DNA of 64,000 bases, taken from assembly GCA_947168725.1 (NCBI GenBank), contig CAMVNA010000001.1, forward strand, positions 124,001 through 188,000. Direction: 5' to 3'. The notes below the pieces were generated by a model. That model saw only the letters and a program-made list of their open reading frames with translations. It was not told the origin of the DNA and did not search any database. Shown here piece by piece: positions 11,417-63,153 of the stretch. Each line of letters starts with the position of its first letter. Positions within the stretch are counted from its first letter, which is position 1. Both the position numbers and the translations under genes were made by a program. This stretch comes from an uncultured bacterium. Its GTDB lineage: Bacteria > Patescibacteriota > Gracilibacteria > Absconditabacterales > Absconditicoccaceae.

Positions 11417-11487
11417 CAGGCGGTGAGGGGATCGAACCCCCGACAGCGGTTCCGAAGACCGATGTGTTACCACTACACCAACCACCC
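11417..11487 (-). tRNA. tRNA with UCG anticodon, probably tRNA-Trp(UCG)
   Basis: 71 bases: acceptor GGGTGGT / ACCGCCT, D arm GTGT/ACAC, anticodon loop CTTCGGA (anticodon at 11453-11455), T arm GGGGG-TTCGATC-CCCTC. A tRNA finder would label it Arg by anticodon. However, CGA and CGG stand at Trp positions throughout this window, and this tRNA has discriminator G73 and U72 as TrpRS prefers. Its anticodon arm CGGTCT-UCG-GAACCG and the following TGTCGGGGGTTCGA resemble ordinary tRNA-Trp. By contrast tRNA-Arg(GCG) at 26132 has A73. The charging identity is inference. Confidence 0.75.
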
Positions 11488-12351: not shown

Positions 12352-13524
12352 TTATTTTACAGGTAAAACTTTATTTTCCAATTTTAATATTTTATATAGA
12401 AGAAATAATTCTATACAGTTCACCATAAGAGAGCTTCATCCAGCACTGATGAAAGGTAGAGTCACTCATGTGGTTGGAATTATTTGAACATTCACTCACA
12501 TGTTTACGAATGTTTGTACGATGATTAGTGAAATAATTCAGACTCATATCAGTTTTAATTGAGGATCGTTAACTTTTTGTAAATGTTTTAAAACATATCG
12601 AAACATCCGTATATAAAGACCAATTAGGAAAAGATTTCATATAAATCAAATTTCTTCTGAGAATGCAGCAAATATAAAGTCACAATACGATTCTGGTAAA
12701 TTTGAATATTTTTGTAGACCTCTTCCATATCAATTTCAAAAAAATCATCATCATCAAATGGCAATAAGAGCTTGGGTGGTTTGCCATCATGTTCTTTCTC
12801 TTTCTTCTTCAATTTTTTCTTTGTTTGTTGTGAAAAAGTACTCAAAACGTTTAGTTATGTAACTAAATTTTTCACTTACTAATCCAAGAGTTAGTCAAGC
12901 AATAAGTCATGCTCATAATCAGATTCCTAATATTGCTAAGGTCTTTTTAAGTTTTAGTCATGAAAATCGAACCATTACTAGGGCAGTAGCTCAGATTATT
13001 AATACGGTTCAAAAATCTGGAATTAATAAAAACACAAAATATAATAAAGCACTTAAAATAACAAAAGTTAATAAAAATCTTGGAGAATTCATGTCCTCTT
13101 TTTTTCTAGTTAGTCGACTTGCAAGGAATATTATATACGCAAGTTTAAAGAATTCTGATGGTTGAATACTTGGAATTCCGGGAATATCTAACCATCATCT
13201 GGCTCAGTTATATGAACCTCATAATGGAGTAAAAACTAAACATTGAAAAATAAATGTTAATATCATTATAGTTCAAGCGAATTTATGATTCTTTAGTGTT
13301 TTTATTGGAAATTTTCGTAAAATAAGAAAAAGAACAGCGATGTATATTAGGGCTTTTATTTGTTGATAAAAATAATAATAATTTGTGGGTTCGCTAAAAC
13401 TAGATGCAGCTCAATATTTAGCAATAGATGCCATACTCATTGTAAATGATTCATAGACACTAGTACTATACACGGCTAATAATCAGAATATTAATAATAT
13501 GATTCAGTTTATTAATAGAGGCAT
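12352..13524 (-). CDS. ftsW: SEDS-family peptidoglycan polymerase FtsW
   Basis: A 390-residue polytopic membrane protein. The SEDS landmarks are in order: YNGARGWLDIPGIPSIQPSE, then KLAYIIFLASRL, LIPDFGTVLIIGATALVM, the RFEYFF loop, and near the end IIPTTGVTLPFISAGGSSL. Glycosyltransferase SEDS proteins build septal (FtsW) or side-wall (RodA) glycan strands from lipid II; TTGVTLPFIS favours FtsW. The NGAR arginine is AGA. It is followed closely by 11491-12342 and preceded 66 bases upstream by the U32 protein. Confidence 0.9.
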
Positions 13525-13590: not shown

Positions 13591-14880
13591 TTATTTGATT
13601 TCTTCCGGTGGTAAATATAGACATTCTCGTCAATTCAATTCATGGTCTGTGGCAATGTAAACATCTTGCATGTTACAGTCACCTTTTTCTAAAGTTTTTC
13701 CATTTTTATCTAATATATCTGTAATTTCCAAGATTCACATATTATCTGGAGATATGAAATTTAATTTCATTCAGCGGCGTAATTCTTCTTTTGGATCGAT
13801 ATGATGATAAATGATTCAGTCTTTTTCTTTTGTATCTTTTGAGAATATGCCAAAGAAATTTCTATTAAATAAAGGTCAAGCTGTTCATTTTGTGGTTGTA
13901 ATAAATTCTTCAGTAGTAGTTTTTCTTTCTTCAGGAGATATTTCTCCGTCAGGGAATTCTTGTAAATTGTGGAATAAGAACCCATCTCGATACGTTCTAT
14001 GTGGAATCATTTCGACCAAATTTCTAATATTTTCATCAATAGGTTTTCAGTTAGCTATACAGTCACGCACATGTTTATAAGCTTTAACAACAGCTGCTAC
14101 ATAGAATTCTGATTTACTTCTTCACTCAATTTTCATTGAATCTAAGATAGGCATTAATTCGTTTAGACGGTCAATTGTACATAAATCACGAGAAGAAAAT
14201 ATATGTTCACCATTTTCGTCTTCTGTAACTTCTAGCATTTTTCATTCTCTTCTAGCTTCTTGAATAAAGACTCTGTATTGAAATCTACATGAATGATTAC
14301 ATTCTCATTTATTTGCTGGGCGTCCTCATAGATAATCTCCAAGTAAGCAACGTCCAGAATATGTCATACACATTGCTCCATGAATGAAAGCTTCTAATTC
14401 GATTTCTGGTACAGCTTTTTTGATTTCTCCTATTTCTGATATATGTAATTCTCTAGCTAAGATTATTCTTTTTACTCATAAATCCGCCCAAAATTTTACA
14501 CTATCAGAATTTAATGTGGTAGTTTGAGTAGATAAATGAAGAGGTATATTTGGTAAATATTTTCTAATTATTCTAAATGTTCATGGATCAGAAAATATGA
14601 TACTGTCGGCACCACAATCTGCGATTTTTTCTGTAATAGATTCAAAAATCTGAATATCTTTATTTCTTGGAAAAATATTCATTGTAAGAAATGCTTTAGT
14701 TCACTGTGCATGAAGTTGATTTATCGTATCTTTCAAATCATCAAAATTATAGAGTTTATTTTGTCTCATTCTAAGAGATGTAAAAGGTACTCATAGATAT
14801 ACTTCTTCTGCTCAATATGCAGAAGCGACTACAGCTTTTTGATGTGATCATCCTGGTGCAACAATTGATGGAATATTCAT
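13591..14880 (-). CDS. trhP: Peptidase U32 family protein (TrhP/YegQ-like)
   Basis: A 429-residue protein of the U32 family, members of which act in prephenate-dependent tRNA uridine hydroxylation. Visible signatures are [20 protein letters not shown] at the start and the Cys-rich core [19 protein letters not shown]. Then comes [18 protein letters not shown], four or more cysteines expected to hold an Fe-S cluster, and [19 protein letters not shown]. The C-terminal part is longer than the minimal family and ends in a beta-rich domain. Start MNIPSIVAP fits the family. Which substrate it modifies here is inferred from the family. Confidence 0.85.
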
Positions 14881-26131: not shown

Positions 26132-26203
26132 GTCCCGGTCGTTCAATGGATAGGACACAGTCCTGCGAAGACTGTAATCCCGGTTCGACTCCGGGTCGGG
26201 GCA
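26132..26203 (+). tRNA. tRNA-Arg(GCG)
   Basis: The acceptor is GTCCCGG / TCGGGGC, the anticodon loop CTGCGAA and the discriminator A73. The anticodon is GCG in place of the usual bacterial ACG (inosine-modified). G34 reads CGU and CGC only, so it would not compete for CGA, which appears to mean Trp here. Confidence 0.92.
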
Positions 26204-36413: not shown

Positions 36414-37274
36414 TTATTTCTTATTTTCTAAATTTTCTTTTGGATGACGATTTAGACAGAAATATATAGTTATTCATATGATAATGAATATTACAAAAAA
36501 TCGTTGGCTTCTCGTGAATGGTCATATAAATTCAGACTGAGAATCTTGTCTAAGATATTCAAATAAAAATCTGATTATACTATATCGAAGTAAAAAAATC
36601 ACTCATATTTTTCAGATTTTTCGTCTATCTTTTTTAATTTGTTTAACGAAAATGATTATCAATGTAATGAATAATAAAATTCACTCAAAAATGATGGAAA
36701 GCAAATTGGTATTAATTCTAAGAGATGAATCAATCTTATCGTAAATATGCAAAAATCATAGTGATGTCAGAGTTCATACCACTCATTCGCTTCGTCATAA
36801 TGGATTTGTAAATATAATTCAGTATAATTCTTGGTTTAAGAAATTTCATAGTCTTCAAAATGCTATACATAGTGGTAATATGCAACACAATAAGTCTAAT
36901 AAAATTATATATTCTTTTCGTGAAAACTTTTTCTTTTGTATAAATAAAGTAACTCAAAGTACAACTCACAGTATTCATCCAATAAAAGACATTCATCATT
37001 GTCGAATTTTGAACACATCCAATGGATTACCTACGAAATATTGAAAATCATAAATAAAAACATGCCCAACTCTTCATCATATCAAAACTCACAGAATTAA
37101 GACAATAAATAAAGTTTCTAAATTATTTTCTAATATATTTTGCAAATTTGAAAATTTATGAAAATATTTTTTTTTTCAAATGAAATACAAAAAGTAATAA
37201 GATATTATGAAACCTATTAAATAGAATATTCAATATCGATATATATTAATTCAAAAAATCGAAAAAGCTATCAT
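36414..37274 (-). CDS. lgt: Prolipoprotein diacylglyceryl transferase
   Basis: A 286-residue polytopic enzyme that adds diacylglycerol to the lipobox Cys of prolipoproteins. The N-terminus INIYWYGIFYLIGF, then LIGGRVGHVFIY, KIWQGGMSFIGG and GRLGNFLNQELYG are Lgt signatures. The Trp of YWYG (codon 13, 37236-37238) and of IWQGG (codon 91, 37002-37004) are CGA codons. Under the standard code the gene is broken by many TGA and would lose both Trp. It serves the several lipoproteins in this window (4134, 14952, 28185). Confidence 0.92.
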
Positions 37275-48225: not shown

Positions 48226-49611
48226 GTGGTAAACAAATCGTTTATAGATAATCCCGATAACGTATTCTATGATATATTTTTGAAATGATTAAACGAAGAA
48301 ACTATCAAAAAAATATCATTTGATTTAGATGAGCCTAGTCGAATATTAAATCATAGATTACAAAGTTTAAAAGTTTTTTATGAAATTAAAAAACCATCAT
48401 TTTGACCAGATATTTCATCCATAGATTTTGATAACCTTGTTTATTATGCTAAACCCAAGAAATGATTTACAGGAGCGGCTGATTCACGAGATAAAGTCCC
48501 ACAAAACATCAAAAATATATTTCAACGTCTAAATATTCCAGAAGCAGAACAACAATTTTTAGCATGAGTATGATGACAATTTGATTCATCAGTAGTCTAT
48601 CATAAGCTCAAAGAAAAACGACAAAAAAGCTGAATAATTTTTGACGATATTTCAGTTGCTATCCGTGAACATTGAGATTTAGTTCAGAAATATTTCATGA
48701 AACTCGTTCCTCCCACTGATCATCAATTTGCTGCACTTCATGGAGCTGTTTGGAGTGGTGGAACTTTTGTTTATATCCCCAAATGAGTTAAAATATCTGA
48801 TCCATTACAAGCATATTTTCGTATGAATACTTATGAATGAGGACAATTTGAACACACTCTAATAATTCTTGAAGATGAAACAAGCTGTAGCTATATAGAA
48901 TGATGTTCTGCGCCAAAATATGATAAACGTTCACTTCATGCTGGTTGTGTAGAGATTTTCGTATGAAAAAATTCATCGATGCGTTATACATCAGTAGAAA
49001 ATCGGTCATTAAATACATTTAATCTGAATACAAAACGTGCCTTAGTTGAAGAAAATAGCCATATGGAATGGATTTGAGGGAATTTAGGTTCATGAGCTAC
49101 AATGCTATATCCTTGTTCCATTTTGAAATGAGATAATTCTACTTCTGATAACCTTTCATTGGTAGTAGCATCCACAAATCAACATCAGGATGTATGAACT
49201 AAAGTTATCCATATATGAAAAAACACATCCTCAAACACCATTTCTAAATCAATCTCAAAAAGTTGATGAGTAAATACGTATCGTTGATTAATTCAAATTC
49301 AACCAGGTGCAGAAAATGCTGTAGCTTCAACGCGTTGTGATGCTTTACTTTTAGACGAAATTTCTATTTCAGATACGATTCCAGTTATTGAAATTAAAAC
49401 TGATGATGCAACAGTTTCTCATGAAGCTACTGCGTGAAAAATCGATGAAAATCAGCTTTTTTATCTAATGAGTAGATGATTAACTGAAGAAAAAGCTATG
49501 GCAATGATTGTAAATGGATTCATTTCATCTATTACCAAAGAACTCCCTCTAGAATATGCATGAGAACTCAATCATCTAATACAAATGGAAATGGAAAATA
49601 GTATAGGATAA
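48226..49611 (+). CDS. sufB: Fe-S cluster scaffold protein SufB
   Basis: A 461-residue SUF scaffold subunit. Alignment by eye to the family gives four sites where CGA or CGG equals the conserved Trp: EPS-W-ILNHRLQSLK (48340), SWDKVPQNIK (48487), KEKWQKSGIIF (48619) and ENWSLNTFNL (CGG, 49003). By contrast YRG and the Arg of TRCDALL are CGT. The usual GTG start gives VVNKSFIDNPDNV. SufB works with the SufC ATPase and SufD; neither is adjacent here, which is unusual. Gly in the core, for example GGTFVYIP, mixes GGT and GGA with TGA elsewhere. Confidence 0.95.
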
Positions 49612-62226: not shown

Positions 62227-63153
62227 TTAGAATCGCTTTTTTCGCTTAAAATATATCATAGTTCATATTGTAATCCCTATCATTCATCCAAGTAATCGCC
62301 AAAAAATTCATACTATATTTTGAGCAGGAAGTGATACATTCATTCAGTATAGTCAACTTATTCGAGTCAATATCCCTAGTAAAACTGTGAAAATTGTCAA
62401 AATTGAAATAATTTTATTTGTTCTAATAGTCGTTAGTGTATCGGATACATCAAATAAAGATTCTGTGTTTTCGTGAGCGATAGATACTAATGATAATATT
62501 TTATCGGTTTTATATAAAAGATCTTCAAAATATACATCTAAATCTCATTCATAAAAGTTTACAGTTGCTGTTTGTAGTTCACTTAGGATTTCTGTATGTG
62601 GTGTAATAATATGTTTCATTAGTACGGCACTTCTCTTTTTGATTAATAATTCTGAAAGAGTTTCTTGTGTCACAGAATTGGCATCCATAGCAGCATCCTC
62701 AATTTTTAGTAAATCTAGTGAAAACTTGGACATTCACGTCAAGACTTTGTCGTACATTGCATCGATTATTTTGTATAATATGTAGTATGGAGATAGCTTA
62801 AATTCTTCATCATCTTCTGCTTCGGCGATTTCTTTGCGATATTGTTCTTGGATTTTTTCTACATTATTCGTTACATGGGATGTTACGGTTATGATAAAAT
62901 TTTTTCAGAGGATTGCGTGCATTTGATTAGCAAAATGTTTTTTTGTTCTAGTGTTAAATTTAGGAAAACGCATAACTAAGAAAAGACAATCATCATATGT
63001 GTCTATTTTGTCTTGAGTGGTAAAATCTAAAAAATCTTGTTCGATGATTTCATGTAAGTCGTATTTATCTACAAGTTTGTCTATTTGTTTTTTATCAGGA
63101 TCTACAAGATGGATTCGAGTAGTTCATCAGATTGTTATTTGTTCATCTTTCAT
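62227..63153 (-). CDS. corA: CorA-like Mg2+/metal channel
   Basis: A 308-residue pentameric divalent cation channel. The N-terminus TTWIHLVDPDKKQIDKLVDK has its Trp from CGA (63115-63117), precisely the conserved W of WIDL..P in CorA. The last two helices carry the signature LYGMNVSLP, preceded by ILT-x-ISG with CGA at x (62362-62364). The short basic C-terminus, with two more CGA codons, matches the usual KKW end of CorA. It lies 23 bases after the gene at 63177. Confidence 0.93.

Follow-up and report, generated by a model that had tools for sequence, protein, structure and literature searches.

The window (the whole 64,000-nucleotide stretch that was analysed) carries a tRNA gene with the anticodon UCG that is recognized by ARAGORN and scores 58 bits against the Rfam model RF00005, for which the cut-off is 29 bits, confirming that the gene proposed by the first-pass annotation is real (Table 1). 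The acceptor stem has seven pairs, including G1.U72, G2-C71 and G3-C70, the CCA end is not encoded, and the other Sprinzl positions of note are U8, U20, U33, the anticodon U34 C35 G36, G37 and G73; the G73 discriminator and the G1-U72 pair that had been claimed are thus both present. ARAGORN labels the gene tRNA-Arg, as had been anticipated for any automatic annotation. The uppermost position of the anticodon stem is a U27.C43 mismatch that leaves a stem of 4 bp. The tRNA(UCG) of most congeners shares this feature, which also occurs in the Lys, Cys, Thr and Gln tRNAs of this genome. RNA folding of the tRNA on its own was uninformative (z of -0.76). At least 12 genomes of the family (here always the genome's own family, with "class-mates" for the other members of its class and G000 for the genome of the window) have the gene roughly 1 kb away from ftsW, and this synteny indicates an inherited ortholog and not an accident of assembly.

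Table 1. Features of the window and of the genome referred to in the text.
Feature	Position	Strand	Remarks
tRNA gene, anticodon UCG	11417-11487	minus	ARAGORN and Rfam RF00005; proposed tRNA-Trp(UCG) for CGA (CGG via wobble)
Anticodon UCG (U34 C35 G36)	11455-11453	minus	ARAGORN
Identity positions of tRNA(UCG)	G1 at 11487, U72 at 11418, G73 at 11417, U20 at 11469	minus	
FtsW/RodA/SpoVE-family gene	12352-13524	minus	near tRNA(UCG); CGA codon 137 (13116-13114), Trp in 5/6 standard-code homologues
Peptidase U32 gene	13591-14880	minus	CGA codons 298 and 418 swap with TGG within the family
tRNA-Arg(GCG), internal contrast	26132-26203	plus	A73 and A20; reads CGU/CGC
lgt (prolipoprotein diacylglyceryl transferase)	36414-37274	minus	CGA codons 13 (37238-37236) and 91 (37004-37002)
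sufB	48226-49611	plus	CGA codons 39, 88 and 132; CGG codon 260 (49003-49005)
corA	62227-63153	minus	CGA codon 264, membrane segment before the GMN motif
Family TrpRS sequences	L317 (G000:C4:80950-82100); relatives L318-L340		

The meaning of the codons that this tRNA should read was assessed by codon alignment of four window genes (lgt, ftsW, sufB and peptidase U32) with their counterparts in as many as 40 relatives, where CGA and CGG were masked as X to keep either reading from biasing the alignment. The columns used comprised 13 CGA and 2 CGG in G000, and 59 CGA and 20 CGG across the family. At the CGA columns of G000 the standard-code relatives have Trp in 49% and Arg in 1% of cases, with BLOSUM scores of +4.3 for Trp and -2.3 for Arg; at its two CGG columns the figures are 54% Trp and 0% Arg, and at the 20 CGG columns of the family 44% and 0%. 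Control columns in the same alignments gave 55% Arg for CGU/CGC, 49% Arg for AGA/AGG and 67% Gly for UGA. Within the family, the partners of CGA are TGG, CGA or CGG in 60% of cases and Arg codons in 0.9%, whereas those of CGU/CGC are Arg codons in 55% and TGG, CGA or CGG in 0.6%. Individual positions follow the same pattern, since CGA codons 13 and 91 of lgt are Trp in all five standard-code relatives and in E. coli Lgt, and the sufB codons are Trp in 7/7 (codon 39), 7/7 (codon 88), 6/7 (codon 132) and, for CGG codon 260, 7/7 standard-code homologues. The CGA codon of corA aligns with a Phe of solved CorA structures, an aromatic residue and not Arg. The earlier premise that CGA and CGG encode Trp therefore stood up well in the four genes (Trp near 50%, Arg 0–1% in standard-code relatives), and we regard the case, made by comparison of aligned sequences, as strong that both function as Trp codons here.

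The four conserved genes of G000 contain 16 CGA and 2 CGG against 5 TGG, and CGA also outnumbers TGG in these genes in the relatives G005, G007, G009, G019, G021 and G024. The 48 open reading frames of the window (301-63812) contain 101 CGA, 7 CGG and 136 TGG, with CGA at 53 per 10,000 codons. The choice among them depends strongly on the strand, plus-strand genes having 30 CGA/CGG against 73 TGG and minus-strand genes 78 against 63 (Fisher p 5e-5), and the choice of AGG or AGA for Arg is likewise strand-dependent in the same reading frames (Fisher p 8e-8). This dependence is probably the replication-strand composition bias, and the fact that Trp codons follow it as AGG and AGA do for Arg fits true synonyms under mutational bias.

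The features by which aminoacyl-tRNA synthetases recognize their substrates were compared across the 30 tRNAs found in the genome, whose assembly is 91% complete. Only three of them combine G73, a purine-1:U72 pair and a residue other than A at position 20, namely tRNA-Trp(CCA), the tRNA(UCG) of the window and another tRNA of this kind, with anticodon CCG, encoded elsewhere in the genome. Position 20 of tRNA(UCG) is U and not A, so that a major Arg determinant is gone; A20 is confined in this genome to the two undisputed Arg tRNAs, GCG and CCU. No tRNA(ACG) was found in the assembly, in which tRNA-Arg(GCG) is present. The pattern is conserved in the family, where G73 and a non-A20 are found in 18/18 UCG tRNAs (one per genome) and 18/18 CCG tRNAs, and A/G1:U72 in 16 of the UCG tRNAs and all 18 CCG tRNAs, the two exceptions being the G1:C72 pairs of G002 and G006. 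By contrast, A73 with A20 occurs in all 11 undisputed tRNA-Arg of the family that were read (GCG, CCU and UCU) and in seven tRNA-Arg of class-mates, six with anticodon UCG and one with CCG. BLAST searches, which were not exhaustive for these genomes, gave no UCG or CCG tRNA in G009, G010 and G016.

One class-mate that also reads UGA, G035, has a tRNA(CCG) of mixed character (L366, G035:C5:3000-3150), with A1:U72 and G73 as in tRNA-Trp and A20 as in tRNA-Arg, possibly an intermediate state; no UCG tRNA was found in this genome. Another sister genome that may represent an intermediate, G037, has a UCG tRNA of the Arg type. G035 carries two tRNAs with the anticodon CCA (L308 and L364), of which L308 is without any Trp acceptor features (C1:G72, A73) and is perhaps mis-assigned or unusual.

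An ordinary tRNA-Arg(UCG), with CGA and CGG still read as Arg by an ArgRS that tolerates G73 and a D loop that has drifted, would agree with the ARAGORN label and with an anticodon arm that almost equals the arm of a standard-code tRNA-Arg(UCG). ArgRS can accommodate C35 and G36, and it takes either A or G73 by the rule given in PMC8629427; indeed C35, G36 and G73 fall within the general pattern for tRNA-Arg (C35, G or U36, A or G73), a pattern that does not discriminate against Trp. This reading is nevertheless extremely unlikely, as it would turn the two conserved Trp residues of Lgt into Arg, relatives have Trp and almost never Arg at the positions of CGA and CGG, and A20 is found in none of the 18 UCG and none of the 18 CCG tRNAs of the family, against 11 of its 11 Arg tRNAs. 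Ambiguous decoding, in which both Trp and Arg would be loaded onto the tRNA or CGA and CGG would be read partly as each, has somewhat more room, because comparative data reveal the dominant meaning only and C35 and G36 keep some compatibility with ArgRS. It too is very unlikely, with Arg making up 0–3% of outgroup residues at CGA/CGG columns, Arg codons 0.9% of the family partners, and both A20 and A73 lost.

The remainder of the code of this genome is also non-standard. A tRNA-Gly(UCA) with G1:C72, C2:G71, G3:C70 and U73 is present in G000, G002, G015 and G011, in-frame TGA occurs, and a search for RF2 above its curated cut-off found it in no family member, against 14 class-mates that have it; UGA is Gly in this genome. 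In the one protein compared, SufB is 69% identical to that of 'Candidate division SR1 bacterium MS502-49' and 57–59% identical to records named Gracilibacteria.

We conclude, at a probability of about 0.93, that the gene encodes a putative tRNA-Trp whose anticodon is UCG, and that its host, a probable member of the Absconditabacteria (SR1) lineage, uses UGA as Gly and CGA and CGG as Trp. It would work like a tRNA-Trp, although not a canonical one, C35 being the only position shared with the canonical anticodon CCA. The single TrpRS would charge tRNA(UCG) through G73 and C35, both common to tRNA-Trp(CCA), and ArgRS would be expected to ignore it for lack of A20 and A73, and likewise to reject tRNA(CCG), which also has no A20. 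U34 would then read CGA and, by wobble, CGG as Trp, the companion tRNA(CCG) would read CGG, and Arg would be left to AGA/AGG and CGU/CGC, served by the tRNAs UCU, CCU and GCG. The first-pass annotation had cast tRNA(UCG) as the agent of the recoding; the Trp-type identity features over 18 family genomes support this, except that it would not be the sole agent, as tRNA(CCG) shares the task.

The origin of this tRNA is a separate matter. Its anticodon arm (17 nucleotides), which had been described as Trp-like, in fact shares 15/17 positions (88%) with tRNA-Arg(UCG) from a class member with the standard code and only 8/17 (47%) with the genome's own tRNA-Trp(CCA), with 65% identity to the tRNA-Trp of a congener. 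The T arm is also 88% identical to the standard-code tRNA-Arg(UCG), and the D arm is 27% identical to the genome's tRNA-Trp. These values favour an identity switch of an ancestral tRNA-Arg(UCG) over duplication of tRNA-Trp(CCA) followed by a change of anticodon. A tree built on all columns except the anticodon points the other way: it separates the UCG, CCG and CCA tRNAs from the Arg tRNAs of the family and of the standard-code class-mates by a branch with 100/100 support, the opposite of a clustering with tRNA-Arg, with the exception of G035, whose two divergent CCA tRNAs fall on the Arg side and whose mixed CCG tRNA falls on the Trp side. When the identity positions are removed, however, the AU test does not reject a placement of UCG among the Arg tRNAs (p 0.36, or 0.29 without the acceptor stem); the split leans on these positions, and the tree is thus no proof of descent from tRNA-Trp. 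The nearest whole tRNA is tRNA(CCG), at 65% identity, which also speaks against a switched tRNA-Arg, and the number of informative columns, approximately 60, is too small. We give a switched tRNA-Arg an even chance against a remodelled tRNA-Trp, and the switch is compatible with the assignment as tRNA-Trp(UCG). A tRNA body derived from tRNA-Gly(UCC), a visual impression, was discarded, as the nearest tRNAs do not include Gly(UCC).

A match to TrpRS was obtained in 23 family genomes, of which 22 have a single copy, and with one TrpRS per genome the same enzyme would have to accept the anticodons CCA, CCG and UCG; the family search gave no match in G022 and G023. The remaining genome, G017, has two different enzymes (L334, G017:C1:8060-9200, and L335, G017:C5:255080-256220), one with the anticodon loop Thr-His-Ser and the other with Thr-Asp-Ala. 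In the structure of the E. coli complex Thr225, Asp226 and Lys274 recognize C35, Ser227 recognizes A36 and Glu155 recognizes G73; C34 is contacted through the backbone at Tyr270 and Gly271 (PMC12135181). The whole anticodon CCA is an identity element of the E. coli enzyme (PMC12135181), and UCG would therefore be expected to serve poorly as a substrate of an unchanged TrpRS. The 24 TrpRS of the family and 13 of class-mates were aligned to E. coli TrpRS, whose numbering is used. The equivalents of Thr225, Lys274 and Glu155 are invariant in all 24 family enzymes, and Asp226 is retained in nine. Ser227 is kept in 3/24, against 11/13 class-mates, with variable residues in its place, and position 271 is Lys in 22/24 and Gly in two (G015 and G024), against Gly in 12/13 class-mates. 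When the 334 residues are ranked by divergence, the top 25 include three of the nine contact-loop residues (hypergeometric p 0.02, post hoc).

Most readers of the shared determinants C35 and G73 are thus constant and the readers of the changed anticodon positions 34 and 36 are not, a pattern that is suggestive only. The family is one clade and the changes could be clade drift, and the solved bacterial TrpRS of PDB entries 5tev and 2el7 are also without the Thr-Asp-Ser loop. The replacement of Gly271 by Lys was ruled out as a tracker of CGA use, as CGA is in use in G015 and G024, both of which retain Gly. On the sequence comparison, we put it at slightly under even odds that relaxed anticodon reading by TrpRS enabled the reassignment, with one enzyme accepting CCA, CCG and UCG and CGA becoming in places the main Trp codon. 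One enzyme, three anticodons and two changed contact sites would bear on how a synthetase acquired the ability to use a tRNA with a foreign anticodon. A text search of PMC8629427 (Shulgina & Eddy 2021) found no mention of TrpRS.

Sense-codon reassignments are rare in bacteria, and the support for CGA and CGG as Trp is computational; tRNA(UCG) is the adaptor that would make the reassignment work. Default annotation mislabels it and would place Arg at about 44% of the Trp codons of the window (108/244). The change of CGA and CGG to Trp was predicted in Absconditabacteria with tRNAs classed by identity rules, and mixed states were noted in sister Gracilibacteria (Shulgina & Eddy 2021, eLife 10:e71402, PMC8629427). 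A 2026 paper takes the reassignment as established for Absconditabacterales, and no charging experiment was found in the literature searched. The recoding and its tRNAs being already published for Absconditabacteria, the finding itself is known. Since then, an Absconditabacterales code has been entered by NCBI as table 37. Code 25 is still used for annotation in recent papers on this lineage.

The genome agrees with the published Absconditabacteria code in CGA/CGG as Trp and UGA as Gly, in a tRNA(UCG) and a tRNA(CCG) with G73, non-A20 and A/G1:U72 as support, and in a tRNA-Arg(GCG) for CGU/CGC (PMC8629427). The reassignments were described there as early-stage, with CGA below 37 per 10,000 Pfam-aligned codons (PMC8629427), whereas here CGA stands at 53 per 10,000 in window reading frames, counted in another way, and is more frequent than TGG in the four conserved genes; allowing for this difference of measures, the reassignment looks more advanced in this lineage than in the published account. 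Anaerococcus and a clade of Bacilli (RFN20) have made a similar change from Arg to Trp through a Trp-type tRNA(CCG), but only for CGG and with no tRNA(UCG), CGA remaining Arg via an inosine-modified tRNA(ICG) (PMC8629427). The SR1/Gracilibacteria reading of UGA as Gly (table 25) is shared by this genome, with its tRNA-Gly(UCA), in-frame UGA and no RF2, but it concerns another codon and another tRNA and is independent of the CGN change. Beyond the published work lie the excess of CGA over TGG in conserved genes, the strand-dependent choice of Trp codon and the TrpRS pattern.
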